Assembly (NCBI RefSeq): GCF_013347965.1
Contig: NZ_CP048810.1
Span: forward strand, 2,356,001-2,420,000
Length of the DNA stretch: 64,000 bases
Direction of reading: 5' to 3'
Source: Pseudomonas bijieensis
GTDB taxonomy: Bacteria > Pseudomonadota > Gammaproteobacteria > Pseudomonadales > Pseudomonadaceae
A program made the translations under genes and the position numbers. The notes below the pieces were generated by a model that had not been told where the DNA came from, searched no databases, and was given only the letters and a program-made list of their open reading frames with translations. This document shows positions 18,924 to 64,000 of the stretch, piece by piece; the stretch's first letter is position 1; each line of letters opens with the position of its first letter.

Positions 18924-19796
18924 TTATTTCGGTTTCCGGACCGGCTTGCTGCCGCCCAGGTGTTTTGCCCCGCCGCTGGCGATCAGTTCCGCCAGTTCGG
19001 AAACGTCCAGCAAGGCGCACATGTGTTCGATCACCGTACCGGCCAGCCATGGCCGTTGCCCTCGATGGCTGCGCCACTTGATCTCGTTCGGGTCCAGGCG
19101 CAGCGAACGGCTGACCTGATGCACCGCCAACCCCCACTCGTACCCCTGCACCGAAATCACGTATTGCAGGCCCTGGCGAAAGTCATCGCGATAACGGTCC
19201 GGCATGACCCAGCGCGCGGTATCCAGCACCTTCAGGTTGCCGGCCTGGCTCGGCAGGATCCCGAGGAACCATTCCGGCTGGCCGAACAACGGCGTCAATT
19301 CCTGCCCGGCCAGGGAATAAATCGATCCCAGGCATACCAGCGGTACCGCCAGGGTCAACCCGGCCACATCGAACAACAAACACTCGAACGGCTCGGCAGC
19401 CCAGGCCGGACGGTCGTCGCCCGGCACCGGTGGCGGCGGATTGCTCGGCGGCAAGTGGACTTCCACTACCGGCGTCACCAGGCCCTGCAACAGCGGGGCA
19501 ACGGTGGAGACCGGCGCCAGGATCGGCGCAGGCGCATCCATTACCGCCACCTGAGGCTTGATAAACGGTGCCTCGACCGCTGCCGCCATTACTGATTTCT
19601 GTGCGTCACGGGCCTGCTCTTCGAGCACGGCCGCTTGAAATTCGTCCAGCACACCCTTGGCTTCGACGTGCTCGGGCAACGCCTCGATCACGCTTGGCTG
19701 CGGTGGCAATTCTTCGGTCGCTTCCTGCAACAGCCCATCCAGATAGGATTGCAGGGCCATTTGCGGACGCGAGGTTGTCTTAATCGGGCGGCTCAT
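18924..19796 (-). CDS. CheW-domain protein, ParP-like array localisation factor
   Basis: The 290-residue protein has an acidic, proline-containing N-terminal half (residues 1-150) and a C-terminal CheW-like domain (CLLFDVAGLTLAVPLVCLGSIYSL...WFLGILPSQAGNLKVLDTARWVM). It stands directly after a ParA-type ATPase gene. In Vibrio and Pseudomonas such ParC/ParP pairs place chemotaxis arrays at the pole, with ParP binding CheA and receptors. The start MSRPIKTTSRPQ was preferred over an upstream in-frame start because the family begins with this short basic segment. Confidence 0.82.
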   Translation of the reverse strand: MSRPIKTTSRPQMALQSYLDGLLQEATEELPPQPSVIEALPEHVEAKGVLDEFQAAVLEEQARDAQKSVMAAAVEAPFIKPQVAVMDAPAPILAPVSTVAPLLQGLVTPVVEVHLPPSNPPPPVPGDDRPAWAAEPFECLLFDVAGLTLAVPLVCLGSIYSLAGQELTPLFGQPEWFLGILPSQAGNLKVLDTARWVMPDRYRDDFRQGLQYVISVQGYEWGLAVHQVSRSLRLDPNEIKWRSHRGQRPWLAGTVIEHMCALLDVSELAELIASGGAKHLGGSKPVRKPK

Positions 19797-19892
19797 GGGA
19801 ACAGTGCGCCACTTGAAGAGGTTATCGGCATGAATGCGGTAGGACTTGAGCGTTCGCAAGCGAACACAGTGCCAGTGGAAAGCCTCGTCACG

Positions 19893-20684
19893 TTAAGCCA
19901 CCTGCTGCGGAACAAGCTGCTGGGCCAGCAGGTGCTTGAGCAGCGCCCGGTAGGCCAACACGCCACGGCTCTTGCCATCGAACTGCGAAGGGGTCACTCC
20001 GGCACGACTGGCGTCGCGCAGGCGGGTATCGACGGGGATATAGCCTTGCCAGATGTCATCCGGGTACATGTCCCGCAACACACGCAGGGTACCCAGGGAC
20101 GCCTGGGTGCGACGATCGAACAAGGTCGGCACGATGTTGAAAGCCAGCGTCTGCTTGCGCGAGCGGTTGACCATCGCCAGGGTATTGACCATGCGCTCCA
20201 GGCCTTTGACCGCCAAGTGCTCGGTCTGTACCGGGATCACCAGTTGCTGGCTGGCAGCCAAGGCATTGACCATCAGCAAACCCAGCAACGGCGGGCTGTC
20301 GATAATCGCGTAATCGAAATCCTGCCACAGCTGCGCCAGACTCTTGGCGATCACCAGGCCCAGGCCGCTCTGCCCGGGCGACTGTCGCTCCAGGGTGGCC
20401 AAGGCGGTGCTCGAGGGCAACAGGGAAATTCGCTCGTCGCTGGTGGACAACAGCAACTGCCCCGGCAGGCCCTCGGGCACAACGCCCTTGTGCAGGAACA
20501 GGTCGTAGTTGCTGTGCTCCAGGCTGTCGGGATCGTAGCCGAAATAGCTGGTCATCGAGCCATGGGGGTCCAGGTCGACGATGACCACGCGCTTGCCCGC
20601 CTCGGCCAGCAACCCGGCTAAAGCGATGGAAGATGTGGTCTTGCCCACACCACCTTTTTGATTGGCGACTGCCCAGACTCTCAT
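19893..20684 (-). CDS. ParA-family ATPase (ParC-like, polar positioning of chemotaxis arrays)
   Basis: The 263-residue ATPase has the deviant Walker A NQKGGVGKTT (residues 8-17), the D-L-D-P-H-G switch region and YAIIDSPPLLGLL as Walker B. It is a chromosomal ParA homologue located between motD and the ParP-like gene, where the pseudomonad and Vibrio ParC protein is encoded. The role in array placement follows from that context. A plasmid-partition role is unlikely because no ParB gene is nearby. Confidence 0.85.
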   Translation of the reverse strand: MRVWAVANQKGGVGKTTSSIALAGLLAEAGKRVVIVDLDPHGSMTSYFGYDPDSLEHSNYDLFLHKGVVPEGLPGQLLLSTSDERISLLPSSTALATLERQSPGQSGLGLVIAKSLAQLWQDFDYAIIDSPPLLGLLMVNALAASQQLVIPVQTEHLAVKGLERMVNTLAMVNRSRKQTLAFNIVPTLFDRRTQASLGTLRVLRDMYPDDIWQGYIPVDTRLRDASRAGVTPSQFDGKSRGVLAYRALLKHLLAQQLVPQQVA

Positions 20685-20733
20685 TCGGATCGTTCCTCCC
20701 GGCCGAAACAGGCTCGACCGAGAAATAGCTCGG

Positions 20734-21618
20734 TTATAAAGCGGGTGACGGAGAATTGACGGCACTCTGTCTTCCCGGCGGCTTGACCGGAGCCGGTGCA
20801 GTTTGTGTGCCAGCCCGCTTCAATGCCGCATCCGGGGTTGCATTGGCCGTACCGGTACCGGTCAGGCTACGACGCACATCGAGGTTACGCGACACCACCA
20901 GCACCACCCGCCGGTTGCGCGCACGCCCCTCGGCAGTGGCGTTGTTGGCGACCGGCTGGAACTCGCCGTAGCCCACCGATGCCAGGCGCCCAGGGTTCAC
21001 ACCCTGCATCGCCAGCATGCGCACGATGCTCGCCGAACGGGCCGAGGACAGTTCCCAGTTGGTCGGGTACTGCGCAGTACGGATCGGCTGGTCGTCGGTA
21101 AAGCCTTCGACATGGATCGGATTGTCAAAGGGCCTCAGGATCGCCGCCACCTTGTCGATGATGTTGAAGGCCATGTCGCTGGGCATCGCGTCGCCGCTGC
21201 CGAACAACAGGCTGGAATTGAGCTCGATCTCGACCCACAACTCGTTGCCGCGTACGGTCATCTGGTTGGAGCTGATCAAGTCACCGAACGCGGCGCTGAT
21301 GTCGTCGGCGATGCTTTTCAACGGGTCGCTGCCACCGGCGATACCGGCATCGACCTGTTCGCTGTCCTTGATCAAAGGTTTGGCCGGGGTGCTGCTCTTG
21401 GGCCGCTCGTCGCCGATAGGGATGGGCTTGAGGGCGCGGTCGGAGTCGGTAAAAACGCCGATCAACGCCTCGGAAATGACTTTGTACTTGCCTTCGTTGA
21501 CCGACGAAATCGAATACATGACCACGAAAAAGGCGAACAGCAACGTAATGAAATCGGCATAGGAAACCAGCCAGCGTTCATGGTTGACGTGTTCTTCACG
21601 ATGCCTGCGACGTGCCAT
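20734..21618 (-). CDS. motD: Flagellar stator protein MotD (MotB type)
   Basis: The 294-residue protein has the MotB plug/helix region with the proton-carrying Asp in WLVSYADFITLLFAFFVVMYS and a C-terminal OmpA-like peptidoglycan-binding domain (IHVEGFTDDQPI...NWELSSARSASIVRML...GYGEFQPVANN). Together with MotC it forms the second stator set of pseudomonads, important for swarming and viscous media in P. aeruginosa. It lies 15 bases after motC. Confidence 0.93.
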   Translation of the reverse strand: MARRRHREEHVNHERWLVSYADFITLLFAFFVVMYSISSVNEGKYKVISEALIGVFTDSDRALKPIPIGDERPKSSTPAKPLIKDSEQVDAGIAGGSDPLKSIADDISAAFGDLISSNQMTVRGNELWVEIELNSSLLFGSGDAMPSDMAFNIIDKVAAILRPFDNPIHVEGFTDDQPIRTAQYPTNWELSSARSASIVRMLAMQGVNPGRLASVGYGEFQPVANNATAEGRARNRRVVLVVSRNLDVRRSLTGTGTANATPDAALKRAGTQTAPAPVKPPGRQSAVNSPSPAL

Positions 21619-23552: not shown

Positions 23553-25808
23553 TCAAATACGCCGTGCGGCGTAACGCTTGAGCATGCTTGGCACATCGAG
23601 AATCAACGCGATGCGGCCGTCGCCGGTGATGGTGGCGCCGGACATGCCCGGGGTGCCCTGGAGCATCTTGCCCAACGGCTTGATGACCACTTCTTCCTGG
23701 CCCACCAACTGGTCGACGACGAAGCCGATCCGCTGGGTGCCCACCGAAAGGATCACCACATGGCCTTCGCCCTGCTCCACATGGGCCGCGGAGCTGACCA
23801 GCCAGCGCTTGAGGTAGAACAGTGGCAGTGCCTTGTCCCGTACGATCACCACTTCCTGGCCGTCCACCACGTTGGTGCGCGACAGGTCGAGGTGGAAGAT
23901 CTCGTTGACGTTGACCAGCGGGAAGGCAAACGCCTGGTTGCCCAGCATCACCATCAGGGTTGGCATGATCGCCAGGGTCAACGGAACCTTGATGACAATC
24001 TTCGAGCCCTGACCCTTGGTCGAGTAGATATTGATCGAACCGTTGAGCTGGGAAATCTTGGTTTTCACCACGTCCATGCCCACGCCACGGCCCGACACGT
24101 CGGAAATCTCGGTCTTGGTCGAGAAGCCCGGGGCAAAGATCAGGTTGTAGCACTCAGTGTCGCTCAGGCGGTCGGCGGCATCCTTGTCCATCACACCGCG
24201 TTTCACCGCGATGGAACGCAATACGTTCGGGTCCATGCCTTTGCCATCGTCGGAGATCGACAGCAGGATGTGGTCGCCCTCCTGCTCGGCAGCCAGGATC
24301 ACCCTGCCGCTGCGGACCTTGCCTGAAGCTTCGCGCTCTTCCGGCGACTCGATACCGTGGTCGACCGCGTTGCGCACCAAGTGGACCAACGGGTCGGCCA
24401 GGGCCTCGACAAGGTTCTTGTCGAGATCGGTCTCTTCACCCACCAGTTCCAGGTTGATTTCTTTCTTGAGCTGGCGAGCCAAGTCACGAACCAGGCGCGG
24501 GAAGCGCCCGAAGACTTTCTTGATCGGCTGCATGCGGGTCTTCATGACCGCGGTCTGCAGGTCCGCCGTGACCACGTCGAGGTTCGACACGGCCTTGGAC
24601 ATGGCTTCGTCCTGGCTGTTGAGGCCCAGGCGCACCAGACGGTTACGCACCAGCACCAGCTCGCCGACCATGTTCATGATCTCGTCCAGGCGTGCGGTAT
24701 CGACCCGAACGGTGGTTTCGGCTTCGCTGGCCGGTTTTTCCGCTGGCGCAGCCGCTGGAGCGCGGGCGGGTGCCGGGGCAGCAGCGGCGGGCTTGGCGGG
24801 CTCGGCCTTGGGTTCCGGTGCCTTGGCCGCGGGTTTGGGCACAGCCTTGGCCGCGGGTGCTGCCGCAGTGGCGGCGGCAGGCGCGGCAGAAGCGGTACCG
24901 ACTTCGCTGAACTTGCCCTTGCCATGCAGCTCATCGAGCAGTGATTCGAATTCGTGGTCGCTGATCAGGTCGCTACCCGCGGCAGCGGCAGCAGGCTTGG
25001 CCGGTGTCGGCGCCGAAGCGATGGCCGAATCCAGTGCGTCCACGGCAAAGGTGCCCTTGCCATGCAACTGATCGAGCAATGCTTCGAATTCATCGTCGGT
25101 GATGTCCGAGCTGTCGCCCGCGGCTTTCGGGGCGGCCGGGGCCGCCGACGGGACGACGGCATCAGGTGCGAACTGGCCCTTGCCATGGAGCTGGTCGAGC
25201 AGCGACTCGAACTCGGCATCGGTGATTTCATCGCTGGCAGCTCCATCGGCGGCCGGCGCAGCGGGTGCAACCGGAGCGGCCGGCGCCTCGGCCTGGGCCT
25301 TGACGGTGTTGAGGGAGTCCAGCAGTTGTTCGAATTCGTTATCGGTGATGTCGCCCGATTCCTCGGCGACCGGTTCTTCGACCACTGCCTCGGCAACCGG
25401 CGCCGCTTCGTCAGCCGATTGCGGCTCGGCCAGGCGCGACAGCGCGGCGAGCAGCTCGGGGGTGGCAGGGGTAATCGGCGAGCGCTCACGCACTTCGCTG
25501 AACATACTGTTGACCGCATCCAGCGCTTCAAGCACCACGTCCATCAGTTCCGAATCAACGCGACGCTCACCCTTGCGCAGGATGTCGAACACGTTCTCGG
25601 CAATGTGACAGCACTCCACCAGCTCGTTGAGCTGGAGGAAGCCGGCGCCTCCTTTTACAGTGTGGAAACCGCGAAAAATTGCATTGAGCAGATCCGCATC
25701 ATCAGGTCGGCTTTCCAGCTCGACCAGCTGTTCGGACAGTTGCTCTAGAATCTCGCCGGCCTCAACCAGGAAATCCTGAAGGATCTCTTCATCGGCGCCG
25801 AAGCTCAT
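23553..25808 (-). CDS. cheA: Chemotaxis histidine kinase CheA with repeated linker motifs
   Basis: The 751-residue kinase has an N-terminal Hpt domain (phospho-His49 in FRGFHTVKGGAGFL), an unusual linker, then the dimerisation helices (VDTARLDEIMNMVGELVLVRNRL from about 369), the ATPase domain (HLVRNAVDHGIESP, ISDDGKGM, GRGVGMDVVK) and a CheW-like C-terminus. The linker, where a CheY-docking P2 domain sits in enteric CheA, shows no P2-like fold by eye. It contains four copies of a D-x-E-F-E-x-L-L motif separated by Ala/Pro-rich stretches. The gene sits between cheZ and cheB. Confidence 0.95.
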   Translation of the reverse strand: MSFGADEEILQDFLVEAGEILEQLSEQLVELESRPDDADLLNAIFRGFHTVKGGAGFLQLNELVECCHIAENVFDILRKGERRVDSELMDVVLEALDAVNSMFSEVRERSPITPATPELLAALSRLAEPQSADEAAPVAEAVVEEPVAEESGDITDNEFEQLLDSLNTVKAQAEAPAAPVAPAAPAADGAASDEITDAEFESLLDQLHGKGQFAPDAVVPSAAPAAPKAAGDSSDITDDEFEALLDQLHGKGTFAVDALDSAIASAPTPAKPAAAAAGSDLISDHEFESLLDELHGKGKFSEVGTASAAPAAATAAAPAAKAVPKPAAKAPEPKAEPAKPAAAAPAPARAPAAAPAEKPASEAETTVRVDTARLDEIMNMVGELVLVRNRLVRLGLNSQDEAMSKAVSNLDVVTADLQTAVMKTRMQPIKKVFGRFPRLVRDLARQLKKEINLELVGEETDLDKNLVEALADPLVHLVRNAVDHGIESPEEREASGKVRSGRVILAAEQEGDHILLSISDDGKGMDPNVLRSIAVKRGVMDKDAADRLSDTECYNLIFAPGFSTKTEISDVSGRGVGMDVVKTKISQLNGSINIYSTKGQGSKIVIKVPLTLAIMPTLMVMLGNQAFAFPLVNVNEIFHLDLSRTNVVDGQEVVIVRDKALPLFYLKRWLVSSAAHVEQGEGHVVILSVGTQRIGFVVDQLVGQEEVVIKPLGKMLQGTPGMSGATITGDGRIALILDVPSMLKRYAARRI
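24909..25355 (-). repeat. Four degenerate FliM-like motif repeats in the CheA linker
   Basis: Protein-level repeats at residues 152-168, 193-213, 234-254 and 279-300 of CheA share I-T/S-D-x-E-F-E-x-L-L-D-x-L. The last three continue H-G-K-G-x-F. The motif starts are 41, 41 and 46 residues apart. The DNA copies are similar but not identical (TTGCCATGCAGCTCATCGAG, TTGCCATGCAACTGATCGAG and TTGCCATGGAGCTGGTCGAG on the plus strand), indicating old duplication under selection. Confidence 0.9.
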
Positions 25809-25838: not shown

Positions 25839-26624
25839 TCAGAATCCAAGGCTGGACAGCAAATCGTCCACATCGTCCTGACCGGACATAACGTCTTCTC
25901 TTTTATCGGCATGAATTTGCGGACCTTCACCCTGAGAGAGATGTTTTTGTGGATCTTTTTCAGCAAGCATCGCTTCACGGTCGTGTTCGATACCTGCAAA
26001 GCGGTCGACCTGGCTGGCCATCAACACCAGTTTGAGCAGGTTGCTTTCCACTTCGGTGACCAGTTGGGTCACACGCTTGATCACTTGGCCGGTCAGGTCC
26101 TGATAGTCCTGGGCCAGCAGAATGTCGTTGAGGTTGCTTGCTACGGCGCGGTTCTCGGTGCTGCTGCGCGTCAGGAAACCGTCGACCCGACGGGCCAGTT
26201 CCCGAAACTCTTCAGCGCCGACTTCTCGACGCATGAACCGACCCCAGTCGGTGCTCAAGGCCTGGGCTTCTTCGCTCAGGCCATTGACCAGCGGCGTTGC
26301 GCTTTCCACCAGGTCCATGGTGCGGTTGGCCGCGGCCTCGGTCAGCTTGACCACATACCCCAGACGCTCGGTGGCGTCGGTGATCTGCGAGACTTCCTCG
26401 GCCTGCGGCATATGCGGGTCGATCTGGAAATTGACAATCGCGCTGTGCAGTTCACGCGTGAGCTTGCCCACTTCCTGATACAGACCGCGGTCACGGGTCT
26501 GGTTGAGCTCATGGATCATTTGAACCGCATCGCCAAAGCGACCTTTTTCAAGGCTGTCGACCAGTTCGCGGGCATGTTTTTTCAGGGTCGATTCGAAATC
26601 GCCCATTGAAGATTCGTTGTCCAT
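25839..26624 (-). CDS. cheZ: Chemotaxis phosphatase CheZ
   Basis: The 261-residue mostly helical protein contains the CheZ core (ILLAQDYQDLTGQVIKRV, with the Gln/Asp residues that dephosphorylate CheY-P) and ends with the CheY-tethering helix GQDDVDDLLSSLGF (residues 248-261). It speeds decay of the motor-switching signal. The start follows a strong GGGGGAG site. It lies 18 bases after cheY. Confidence 0.94.
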   Translation of the reverse strand: MDNESSMGDFESTLKKHARELVDSLEKGRFGDAVQMIHELNQTRDRGLYQEVGKLTRELHSAIVNFQIDPHMPQAEEVSQITDATERLGYVVKLTEAAANRTMDLVESATPLVNGLSEEAQALSTDWGRFMRREVGAEEFRELARRVDGFLTRSSTENRAVASNLNDILLAQDYQDLTGQVIKRVTQLVTEVESNLLKLVLMASQVDRFAGIEHDREAMLAEKDPQKHLSQGEGPQIHADKREDVMSGQDDVDDLLSSLGF

Positions 26625-26642: not shown

Positions 26643-27014
26643 TTAACCGATGCGTTCGAAGATTTTTTCGATCTTCTCTTTCAACGCCTGGGCCGTGAAG
26701 GGTTTGACCACATAGCCGTTGACACCGGCCTGGGCCGCTTCGATGATCTGCTCGCGCTTGGCTTCGGCAGTGACCATCAGCACCGGAAGATGCTTGAGTT
26801 TTTCGTCGGCACGCACCTGACGCAGCAGGTCGATACCGGTCATGCCCGGCATGTTCCAGTCGGTGACCAGAAAATCGAAGTTGCCACTGTGCAACATCGG
26901 GAGCGCAGTGGTCCCGTCATCTGCCTCGGCCGTGTTGGTGAACCCAAGGTCACGCAACAGGTTTTTTATGATCCGCCGCATCGTTGAGAAGTCATCAACG
27001 ATGAGGATTTTCAT
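26643..27014 (-). CDS. cheY: Chemotaxis response regulator CheY
   Basis: The 123-residue single receiver domain has the acidic pair Asp7/Asp8, phospho-acceptor Asp52 ([10 protein letters not shown]), Thr82 and Lys104. Phosphorylated by CheA, it binds FliM/FliN at the motor. The MKILIVDD start matches family length; an in-frame upstream start eight codons earlier is unnecessary. About 170 bases separate it from fliA, so it may have its own promoter; I could not identify one with confidence. Confidence 0.95.
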
Positions 27015-27181
27015 GTTCTTGTCCAATTCGACCTCCAAGCAGTCTTAAACGCGCCCAGCACCTGGACGCGCCATTTCAATCAATCCGGCACAACACTCGA
27101 CAACGGTCTGGAGCACAACGGATGGAGACTGGCGCAGTACTTGCCAGGCCAGCCTCGTTCGCAGTGTCCCCACACTGCCTG

Positions 27182-36766: not shown

Positions 36767-37225
36767 TCAGCGCAGCTTCTTGATGCGTTCGCTCGGACTG
36801 ATCACGTCCGTCAGGCGAATGCCGAACTTCTCGTTGACCACCACCACTTCGCCATGGGCGATCAAGGTACCGTTGACCAGCACGTCGAGTGGTTCGCCGG
36901 CCAGGCGGTCCAGCTCGATCACCGAGCCCTGGTTGAGCTGCAGCAGGTTGCGGATGTTGATGTCGGTGCTGCCCACTTCCATGGAAATCGACACCGGGAT
37001 ATCGAGGATCACATCCAGGTTCGGGCCATCGAGCGTTACCGGCTCATGACTCTTCGGCACGCTGCCAAATTCTTCCATCTGCAGGCGGCTGGACGCATGA
37101 GCGCCACTGTCGGCCGCCAGCAAGGCGTCGATGTCGGCTTGCCCGGCATCACCGGTTTCTTCCAGGGCTGCGGCCCATTCGTCGGCAAGCGCCTGGTCAT
37201 CCTGGGTATTCATATCGTCAGCCAT
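36767..37225 (-). CDS. fliN: Motor switch protein FliN
   Basis: The 152-residue protein has an acidic N-terminal segment with a QADIDALL motif (residues 29-36) and a C-terminal SpoA domain (LDVILDIPVSISMEVGSTDINI...LIAHGEVVVVNEKFGIRLTDVI). It completes the C-ring with FliG and FliM. Of two tandem ATGs the second has a GAGGA site at proper spacing and is used. Confidence 0.94.
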   Translation of the reverse strand: MADDMNTQDDQALADEWAAALEETGDAGQADIDALLAADSGAHASSRLQMEEFGSVPKSHEPVTLDGPNLDVILDIPVSISMEVGSTDINIRNLLQLNQGSVIELDRLAGEPLDVLVNGTLIAHGEVVVVNEKFGIRLTDVISPSERIKKLR

Positions 37226-37297: not shown

Positions 37298-38266
37298 TCA
37301 GCGGCGTTCGATCGGCTCGATCACCTGCAACGCCAGGTTGCCTTTGTGAGAGCCCATCTTGACCTTGAAGGCCGGTACGCCATTGGCGCGCATGATCATG
37401 TCTTCCGGCATCTCGACGGGGATGATGTCACCCGGCTGCATGTGCAGGATGTCCCGCAGGCGCAGTTGGCGCCGGGCAACCGTCGCGCCGATCGGCACGT
37501 CGACATCCAGCACATCCTGGCGCAGCGCATTGATCCAGCGCTCGTCCTGGTCGTCGAGGTCCGACTGGAAACCGGCATCGAGCATTTCTCGCACCGGCTC
37601 GATCATCGAGTACGGCATGGTCACGTGCAGGTCGCCGCCACCGCCATCGAGCTCGATGTGGAAGGTCGAGACCACGATGGCCTCGCTCGGGCCGACGATG
37701 TTGGCCATGGCCGGGTTCACTTCCGAGTTGATGTACTCGAAGTTCACTTCCATGATCGCTTGCCAGGCTTCCTTCAAGTCGACGAAAGCCTGCTCCAGCA
37801 CCATGCGCACGACCCGCAGCTCGGTCGGGGTGAATTCACGCCCCTCGATCTTGGCGTGACGACCGTCGCCGCCGAAGAAGTTGTCCACCAGCTTGAACAC
37901 CAGCTTGGCGTCAAGAATGAACAATGCGGTGCCGCGCAACGGCTTGATCTTCACCAGGTTGAGGCTGGTAGGCACGTACAGCGAGTGCACGTACTCACCG
38001 AACTTCATCACCTGCACGCCACCGACGGCCACGTCGGCCGAGCGGCGCAGCATGTTGAACATGCTGATGCGGGTATAGCGGGCGAAACGCTCGTTGATCA
38101 TTTCCAGGGTCGGCATGCGTCCGCGAACGATGCGATCCTGGCTGGTCAGGTCGTAGCTTTTGACGCTGCCCGGTTCAGCAGCGTTTTCGGTCTGCACCAG
38201 GCCATCGTCGACACCATGTAGCAGCGCGTCGATTTCGTCCTGGGACAACAGGTCCTGCACGGCCAT
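37298..38266 (-). CDS. fliM: Motor switch protein FliM
   Basis: The 322-residue protein begins with the CheY-binding peptide LLSQDEIDALLHG (residues 6-18), followed by the CheC-like middle domain (GGDGR near residue 135) and a C-terminal SpoA domain. CheY-P binding to the N-terminal peptide changes rotation. It lies 9 bases after the fliL stop. Confidence 0.95.
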   Translation of the reverse strand: MAVQDLLSQDEIDALLHGVDDGLVQTENAAEPGSVKSYDLTSQDRIVRGRMPTLEMINERFARYTRISMFNMLRRSADVAVGGVQVMKFGEYVHSLYVPTSLNLVKIKPLRGTALFILDAKLVFKLVDNFFGGDGRHAKIEGREFTPTELRVVRMVLEQAFVDLKEAWQAIMEVNFEYINSEVNPAMANIVGPSEAIVVSTFHIELDGGGGDLHVTMPYSMIEPVREMLDAGFQSDLDDQDERWINALRQDVLDVDVPIGATVARRQLRLRDILHMQPGDIIPVEMPEDMIMRANGVPAFKVKMGSHKGNLALQVIEPIERR

Positions 38267-63142: not shown

Positions 63143-64000
63143 TCAGAGCTGTCTGATGGAGTTGTCGTAGTGCTCGAATACCACTTCTCCGGAGTGGTTG
63201 TAATCGGCAAACGACATGTCTTTTTTAGGCACACGCCATTCGCCATACACGAAGTCGAGATAGCCGAAAGCATCATTGGGCGCTTTCAACGACACGCCGA
63301 ATAATTGGAGGTCGTCGAAGCCTTCGAAATGCGCTTGCGGGCAAAACCATTCAGGCATGGCGCCAATCACTACCGCCGATCCATCACGCCGCACACGACG
63401 GGCAATGTCCGTCTCGAACGGGATGATCTGGTCGCCCCCTTCGGCGTTCTCGCAAGTAATCCTGATGGCAAAATCAAACCCATGGGTGGCGATCAGTTCA
63501 ACATTCCACACCACGCCGTCGCGTTGCGGCAGGCGGTGCTTATTGCTACGTACCAGCGCAACAAGGGCCTCGAATTGAGCATCGTTTACCGAGAAGTCAA
63601 TGTCGTCATCCCAAGGAATGAAATCACCTTCACGTAGCGCCCCCAACAACGTACCGAAGTCGAGGTAGAGGTCGATCCCGGCAGCGTCCGTCAGCGCGCC
63701 CAGCGTCACGACCAGCTCGCGGGCAACTGCCTTGGTTTGTGGGTGGGAGAACGGGTGCACATCGCGCATGCCCTTCATCTCACGCTTACCCGGAATGACG
63801 GTAGGTATGTCTCCCAAGCCCAGCGTTTCAAGCTGAGCCAGGATGCTTTGCGACCAGACGCTGGTGATGACGATCACTTCACACCCACTGGCGACGATCT
63901 GATCGGCAGCGATAACCGGATAACCAAAGAATGCCTGCCCCTGCTTTTGTGGGTCGTTATCCACGATCGCGAGAATGTCCAGGTCGCGGTTTTGTTCGAT
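63143..64000 (-). CDS. LicD-family protein (5' end beyond the window)
   Basis: The frame is open to the window edge (IEQNRDLDILAIVDND), so the N-terminus is missing. The visible 285 residues include a Rossmann-like piece (VDNDPQKQGQAFFGYPVI), a linker, and a LicD nucleotidyl/phosphotransferase domain with the signature LYLDFGTLLGALREGDFIPWDDDIDFSV. LicD proteins transfer phosphocholine-type groups to sugars. In this cluster it may decorate the flagellin glycan, which is an inference. About 150 bases without a clear signal separate its stop from the glycosyltransferase start. Confidence 0.82.
   Translation of the reverse strand: MEQNRDLDILAIVDNDPQKQGQAFFGYPVIAADQIVASGCEVIVITSVWSQSILAQLETLGLGDIPTVIPGKREMKGMRDVHPFSHPQTKAVARELVVTLGALTDAAGIDLYLDFGTLLGALREGDFIPWDDDIDFSVNDAQFEALVALVRSNKHRLPQRDGVVWNVELIATHGFDFAIRITCENAEGGDQIIPFETDIARRVRRDGSAVVIGAMPEWFCPQAHFEGFDDLQLFGVSLKAPNDAFGYLDFVYGEWRVPKKDMSFADYNHSGEVVFEHYDNSIRQL

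Follow-up and report, generated by a model that had tools for sequence, protein, structure and literature searches.

The question raised by this locus is how the response regulator CheY is held by a CheA kinase that has no folded P2 domain. According to the excerpt available of a previous study, about half of all CheAs are without P2, and their linkers are described there as unstructured, with the mode of CheY docking unstated (PMC10542144). Such a kinase of 751 residues is encoded in a 64,000-nucleotide stretch of Pseudomonas bijieensis DNA (NCBI RefSeq assembly GCF_013347965.1, contig NZ_CP048810.1, positions 2,356,001 to 2,420,000), hereafter the window, and its linker between P1 and P3 contains four copies of the motif I-[ST]-D-x-E-F-E-x-L-L-D-x-L. 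The four-copy motif exceeds chance expectation and is a real, conserved feature. With a probability of roughly 0.6, judged from sequence and from structural models, the copies form a multivalent CheY-docking array of FliM/CheZ-like peptides in place of P2. No description of such a motif in a CheA linker was found in the open-licence literature.

The domain order of the window CheA according to Pfam is Hpt (P1), the four-motif linker, H-kinase_dim (P3), HATPase_c (P4), and CheW (P5), and the linker is acidic and rich in alanine and proline. The 13-residue cores begin at residues 154, 195, 236, and 282, with a spacing of 41, 41, and 46 residues, exactly as in a first-pass annotation of the window, which had described four motifs 41–46 residues apart; the continuation D-x-L-H-G-K-G-x-F, ascribed there to three of them, is indeed present in copies 2–4 and absent from copy 1. 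Compared over 57 bases, copy 1 shows 54–58% DNA identity and copies 2–4 show 74–77% among themselves, and the four copies are therefore not fresh duplications.

The profile hidden Markov model (HMM) of the motif gave 2–4 matches in each of the 77 CheAs from which the seed was taken and 3–4 in 80 Pseudomonas CheAs outside the seed, while 770 shuffled linkers yielded no match of at least 8 bits and a single one of at least 5 bits. Since the seed pattern demanded EF[EDQ]xLL, the column percentages of the HMM at these letters are not independent evidence. When the source genome was searched with a model of the four copies, the top four matches were the copies themselves, by construction, and the next one had E 0.33, so that outside CheA nothing was found in this genome below E 0.3. 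By reading of coordinates, the motif matches listed for 171 genomes of the class also lie at the CheA locus with the exception of three frames: a 257-residue frame on another contig (G190), a 277-residue frame adjoining CheA (G196), and an unassigned frame of 676 residues (G264).

The absence of a folded P2, which had been proposed for this linker, was borne out by both Pfam and AlphaFold2. The P2 and CheY-binding Pfam models had no match in the window CheA at E up to 1. At E up to 0.1 they matched neither Vibrio fortis CheA nor any of the 22 CheAs aligned with the window CheA in alignment A2 (23 sequences in all). In the AlphaFold2 model, calculated with the 23 sequences of A2, the block means of the predicted local distance difference test (pLDDT) are 91–96 for residues 11–130 and the values are mostly below 50 across residues 133–371, except for the helices given in Table 1 (block means 54–73); only these four linker helices reach four residues or more, one at each motif, and no folded domain is seen in the linker of this model. 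As a control, another CheA encoded by this genome (L254) lacks the motif, and in its AlphaFold2 model a folded, P2-like block of strand-helix-strand-strand-helix-strand occupies residues 156–244. When the models of both kinases were compared with the PDB by VIA-align, P1, P3, P4, and P5 chains were among the matches listed, and no row over the linker or over the P2-like block was among them, one domain being able to fill the list. Unlike a P. putida study, which in the excerpt available names a Pfam-based CheY-binding domain in CheA (PMC11978298), the Pfam copy used here places no CheY-binding domain in the Pseudomonas CheA of the window.

Twenty CheAs of other types were picked from the order search, and the motif was found in none of them at 3 bits or more. 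A Pfam CheY-binding match is present in five, and the linker alignment of ten more aligns to these five in hhalign (E 5.5e-5, probability 66%). The linker profile of 18 motif-bearing CheAs gave no alignment in hhalign either to the Pfam-positive blocks (E 0.11 over 8 columns) or to the P2-like blocks (E 0.098 over 10 columns).

The first-pass annotation had further noted a resemblance to FliM residues 8–18 (SQDEIDALLHG), to FliN (QADIDALL), and to the CheZ tail (QDDVDDLLSSLGF), all of which are present as described. This resemblance proved measurable with a position matrix made from the seed copies and slid over the other non-overlapping open reading frames (ORFs) of the window together with FliN, added back after its removal by the overlap filter. 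At motif positions 4–10 FliM is first, the CheZ tail tenth, and FliN 11th of 19,319 heptamers, and at positions 1–10 FliM is first of 19,127 decamers; the ranks are descriptive, because the registers were chosen after a first run. FliM, CheZ, and FliN themselves were put forward as candidates before the ranking, in the first-pass annotation. The linker copies conform to the sequence pattern L/I-S/T-x-x-E-I/V/F-D/E-x-L-L of the FliM-type CheY-binding motif. The decamer VNDAQFEALV (residues 138–147 of the frame at 63146–64000), which belongs to an unrelated protein, is second best after FliM at positions 1–10, probably by chance.

Several structures serve as reference points for these peptides, namely 1f4v, which we take to be the FliM N-terminal peptide solved with CheY, and 2fmk and 2pmc, presumably the entries for the CheZ C-terminal CheY-binding tail. 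The solved chains nearest to the window CheY are 3to5 (“CheY homolog”) and 4hns, followed by 2che. The available excerpt of a V. cholerae study states that FliM and CheZ use one face of CheY and places FliM on alpha4-beta5-alpha5 of CheY3 by pull-down and docking (PMC3774744). A further excerpt describes, for P. aeruginosa, an overlap of CheY-eYFP with CheA-CFP at the cell pole (PMC12410967), which is an outside hint at CheY docking.

In total, at least one copy of the motif at 8 bits was found in 114 of 117 CheAs of the window type across Gammaproteobacteria, with one copy in 7, two in 36, three in 43, four in 27, and eight in one. The denominator comprises 52 of the 53 CheAs of the order search (the partial G011 being left aside) and 65 of the 67 further CheAs of the class search (without G196 and G156), the profile of which included the linker and may favour motif-bearing CheAs a little; ten CheAs chosen for their motif matches, Vibrio fortis among them, and 80 mostly Pseudomonas loci stand outside it, and L136, L137, and L161 were dropped as repeats of L001, L004, and L043. 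The three CheAs without a copy are L168, which has one sub-threshold copy, L170, which has a frame break and two copies in the other frame, and L202, a fragment without linker. The two copies of L170 (G284) lie in a 441-residue frame, and as they and the kinase part are in different frames the gene is considered frame-broken in the assembly. The eight EFExLL copies belong to a CheA frame of 1073 residues (L201, G146). Among the 80 named loci, nearly all of Pseudomonas, 78 have four copies and two have three. The motif search was positive in 66 of 171 genomes of the class and in 30 of 249 genomes of the phylum, all 30 belonging to the class of the window (the class share of the other 219 is not shown).

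Consecutive copies are 30–54 residues apart in 199 of 230 cases. The HG tail is missing from 54 of 105 first copies, 10 of 111 middle copies, and 18 of 117 last copies, and since it is so much more often missing from the first, the copies are not all alike. Within residues 120–365 of A2, copies 2 and 3 with the tails that follow them contain every column that is invariant or at least 90% conserved. Across 81 Pseudomonas CheAs, conservation is 0.93 in the four cores versus 0.65 in the remaining linker. Conservation across species, the lack of which, like a predicted P2 fold, would have spoken against the first-pass proposal, is thus evident, and the motif is old. Protein identity between the source genome and records of P. 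ogarae, P. kilonensis, and P. fluorescens is 98–99%.

These data bear on the suggestion that the repeats are purely structural or serve solubility, and that the likeness to FliM is a convergence of acidic amphipathic helices. The acidic, alanine- and proline-rich linker is in line with it, as is a similar EEFExxxxLL half-motif in the SHOCT family; however, the difference in conservation between cores and linker remainder, the lack of 8-bit matches in shuffled linkers, and the lack of the motif in the 20 CheAs of other types make this explanation very improbable. Membership of the SHOCT family itself was considered and rejected: the window CheA scores 23.6 bits, below the cut-off of 27, the match covers only model positions 14–27 of 28, and it lies at residues 235–248 of 751, not at the C-terminus. 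The cut-off was reached by one of 23 other CheAs scanned (L019, 28.0). In public Pfam annotation, some of the CheAs listed (120 from Pseudomonas and 120 of Vibrio type) carry SHOCT, given without its position, and the motif can show up there only as a partial SHOCT match. The window CheA is presumably of the F6 class, a label based on the literature and on the gene order of the window.

The main rival of CheY docking is that the motifs are, wholly or in part, the LID of CheA, a region that attaches to ParP through the CheW-like AIF domain of the latter and ties the arrays to the pole. The excerpts available locate the LID of V. cholerae CheA between P2 and P3 and state that it is confined to systems with ParC/ParP (PMC7534058, PMC5706961), and the motif also lies in the linker before P3. 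In agreement with a LID, the linker of Vibrio fortis CheA has three copies and no Pfam P2, and among the 23 aligned CheAs high conservation in this region is restricted to the motif columns. Of the 80 Pseudomonas loci, 78 have a ParP-like ORF downstream, and the remaining two end early. The search for ParP covered 75 of the 120 genomes with this CheA type and gave a match at E 1e-4 or better in 57, of which the weakest may be CheW and several are on other contigs than CheA. In the window itself ParC- and ParP-like genes (18924–20765) adjoin cheW; the product of 18924..19859 is taken to be ParP from gene order and from the description of that protein. P. aeruginosa is said to have no related genes in the excerpt of a 2025 report (PMC12410967).

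The 18 negative genomes were searched again with a ParP profile of 15 rows. Independent positive controls, whose ParP is not in the profile, gave 9e-73 (G240) and 6e-30 (G183), and only these two count as such because the ParPs of the positives G035, G251, and G232 are themselves rows of the profile. In G232 a weak ParP candidate lies between ParC and CheW (39 bits versus 22 for CheW), and this genome was counted as ParP-bearing on weak grounds, its own ParP being in the profile and the score arising by construction, which lowers the count from 18 to 17. None of these 17 has a ParP-grade match, the best being E 6e-14 or weaker or no match, within the range of CheW (3.6e-11 for CheW in the ParP-bearing G240); one ambiguous CheW-like match each was seen in G125 and G169. 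Nevertheless 16 of the 17 keep 1–4 copies of the motif, and the copy of G138 is sub-threshold. For example, G115 has four copies together with CheB, MotC, MotD, and CheW, yet no ParC/ParP beside CheA. In the stretches after CheA, the only place where ParC was sought, ParC occurs with no ParP in a part of the 17, and neither is present in, for instance, G115, G282, G284, G123, and G267.

Given that all but one of the 17 genomes lacking a ParP-grade match retain the motif, ParP is probably not its sole partner, and a ParP-only role was not upheld. The first-pass annotation had left the choice between CheY and the ParP/ParC system; the second, taken alone, is weakened by these genomes, while the absence of P2, the conservation, and the likeness to FliM, CheZ, and FliN are supported. 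Retention of the motif without ParP agrees with a partner that no system of this kind lacks, CheY for example, and ParP may also use the motif in Vibrio or here. On balance the LID explanation is considered unlikely.

Another receiver or array protein, such as CheB, CheW, CheZ, or a neighbouring CheA linker, could also dock on the motif. The gene of CheB follows CheA closely in 12 of the 20 downstream stretches examined, and P2 is said, in the excerpt available, to bind both CheY and CheB (PMC10542144). On the other hand, the likeness is to CheY-binding peptides, and G261, G169, and G009 keep 1–2 copies with no CheB in the stretch after CheA, where alone it was searched. To our knowledge no such peptide has been described for CheB or CheW, and this explanation appears somewhat less probable than the LID.

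Several observations weigh against a CheY-docking array. The peptides of FliM and CheZ prefer phosphorylated CheY (CheY-P), while a docking site on the kinase should also accept the unphosphorylated form. In addition, the conserved HGKG tail extends beyond the likeness to FliM. The matrix ranks depend on the register, since positions 1–10 place FliN 36th and CheZ 43rd, and at positions 4–13 an unrelated decamer is first, FliM second, CheZ seventh, and FliN 86th. Vibrio fortis CheA, from a genus with a reported ParP-binding CheA linker, bears the same motif in three copies (L246, identical to P0121); the genus was assigned by protein identity, and a LuxQ model (NF041947), used as a Vibrio marker, matched none of 369 genomes and none of 14 controls. 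Pfam is insensitive to P2, having missed the P2-like block in ten CheAs of other types, and because of this oversight the AlphaFold2 model is the stronger evidence for the absence of P2. Finally, a P2-less CheA can do without the motif, since both the motif and the P2 block are missing from five of the 20 CheAs of other types.

Two of these five, L256 (G094) and L260 (G048), have linkers without P2 match and with a different acidic-aromatic repeat (FGFFDDAPG, GFGFFDESE, YGFFD), and such FGFFDD-type repeats are possibly a second solution of the same kind. A model of this repeat (7 rows) matched one of 248 genomes, and the result says little because G094, where the repeat was seen, was not recovered.

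If the copies form a CheY-docking array, the work of the missing folded P2 would be taken over by short linear motifs on a flexible linker. Each motif would be a short amphipathic helix, with a first half like FliM (hydrophobic, S/T cap, x, x, E, hydrophobic, acidic, A, L, L) and a second half resembling the CheZ tail (LL-x-x-L), and these helices would most likely bind CheY on alpha4-beta5-alpha5, where FliM and CheZ also bind. A tether with several weak sites may raise the local concentration of CheY near phospho-P1, and these sites might also retain CheY-P or contend with FliM and CheZ for it, so that CheY would be shared among kinase, motor, and phosphatase. What the analysis establishes is the motif with its conservation, the helices predicted for it, its resemblance to peptides known to bind CheY, and a linker with no detectable P2; CheY binding, multivalency, any preference between CheY and CheY-P, an effect on phosphotransfer, and the function of the array are inferred. 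It is also conceivable, though only tentatively proposed, that P2-less CheAs in general use arrays of linear motifs copying the CheY-binding peptides of motor and phosphatase, with a three-way competition for one face of CheY and with the copy number (1 to 8) tuning the retention of CheY at the array, and that others may use the FGFFDD repeat instead.

A conserved FliM-like array would be a direct and testable answer to the docking question in a large CheA type that takes in Pseudomonas and Vibrio, and a single peptide code would then connect kinase docking with motor and phosphatase. The motif also provides a sequence feature for comparison with the ParP-binding region of Vibrio.

Table 1. 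Features of the CheA linker, of the peptides compared with it, and of its candidate partners in the window.
Feature	Positions	Strand	Description	Basis
cheA	23553..25808	minus	751 residues	ORF and Pfam domains
P1–P3 linker of CheA	24699..25412	minus	approximately residues 133–370	AlphaFold2 low confidence (disordered) except four short helices
Motif copy 1	25311..25349	minus	core ITDNEFEQLLDSL, residues 154–166, without LHGKG tail	predicted helix 156–171
Motif copy 2	25188..25226	minus	core ITDAEFESLLDQL, residues 195–207, then HGKGQF	predicted helix 197–207
Motif copy 3	25065..25103	minus	core ITDDEFEALLDQL, residues 236–248, then HGKGTF	predicted helix 238–249
Motif copy 4	24927..24965	minus	core ISDHEFESLLDEL, residues 282–294, then HGKGKF	predicted helix 284–294
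FliM N-terminal peptide LSQDEIDALL	38219..38248	minus	residues 7–16, FliM CheY-binding peptide	best non-CheA match, motif positions 1–10
CheZ C-terminal tail DDVDDLLSSLGF	25842..25877	minus		rank 7 of 19,127 for motif positions 4–13
FliN QADIDALL	37118..37141	minus	residues 30–37	rank 11 of 19,319 for motif positions 4–10
cheY	26643..27038	minus	proposed ligand	Response_reg (Pfam)
ParP-like protein	18924..19859	minus	C-terminal CheW-like domain, rival ligand	Pfam CheW 159–291
ParC-like ParA-type ATPase	19893..20765	minus		Pfam AAA_31; ParC name from gene order

Compared with known systems, the array would be a form of CheY docking on CheA and not a new kind of system. With the P2 of Pfam (PF09078) it has in common the site between P1 and P3 and, presumably, the task of docking CheY; P2 is a single folded domain, whereas the window type has 1–8 short predicted helices in a disordered linker. 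The FliM peptide has ten consecutive like positions in common with the motif (L/I, S/T, x, x, E, I/F, D/E, A, L, L), while the CheA motif differs by Phe in place of Ile and by the extra D-x-L-H-G-K-G tail, and is internal, repeated, and located in the kinase instead of the motor. The CheZ tail follows the same acidic-hydrophobic-acidic-x-LL-x-x-L pattern, but in one copy at the chain end and without the S/T-capped first half. The second half of the SHOCT model (PF09851; I-T-x-E-E-F-E) is also like the motif. The LID of Vibrio CheA, compared with the motif here by description, belongs to the same linker region and is said to go only with ParC/ParP, whereas the motif does not.

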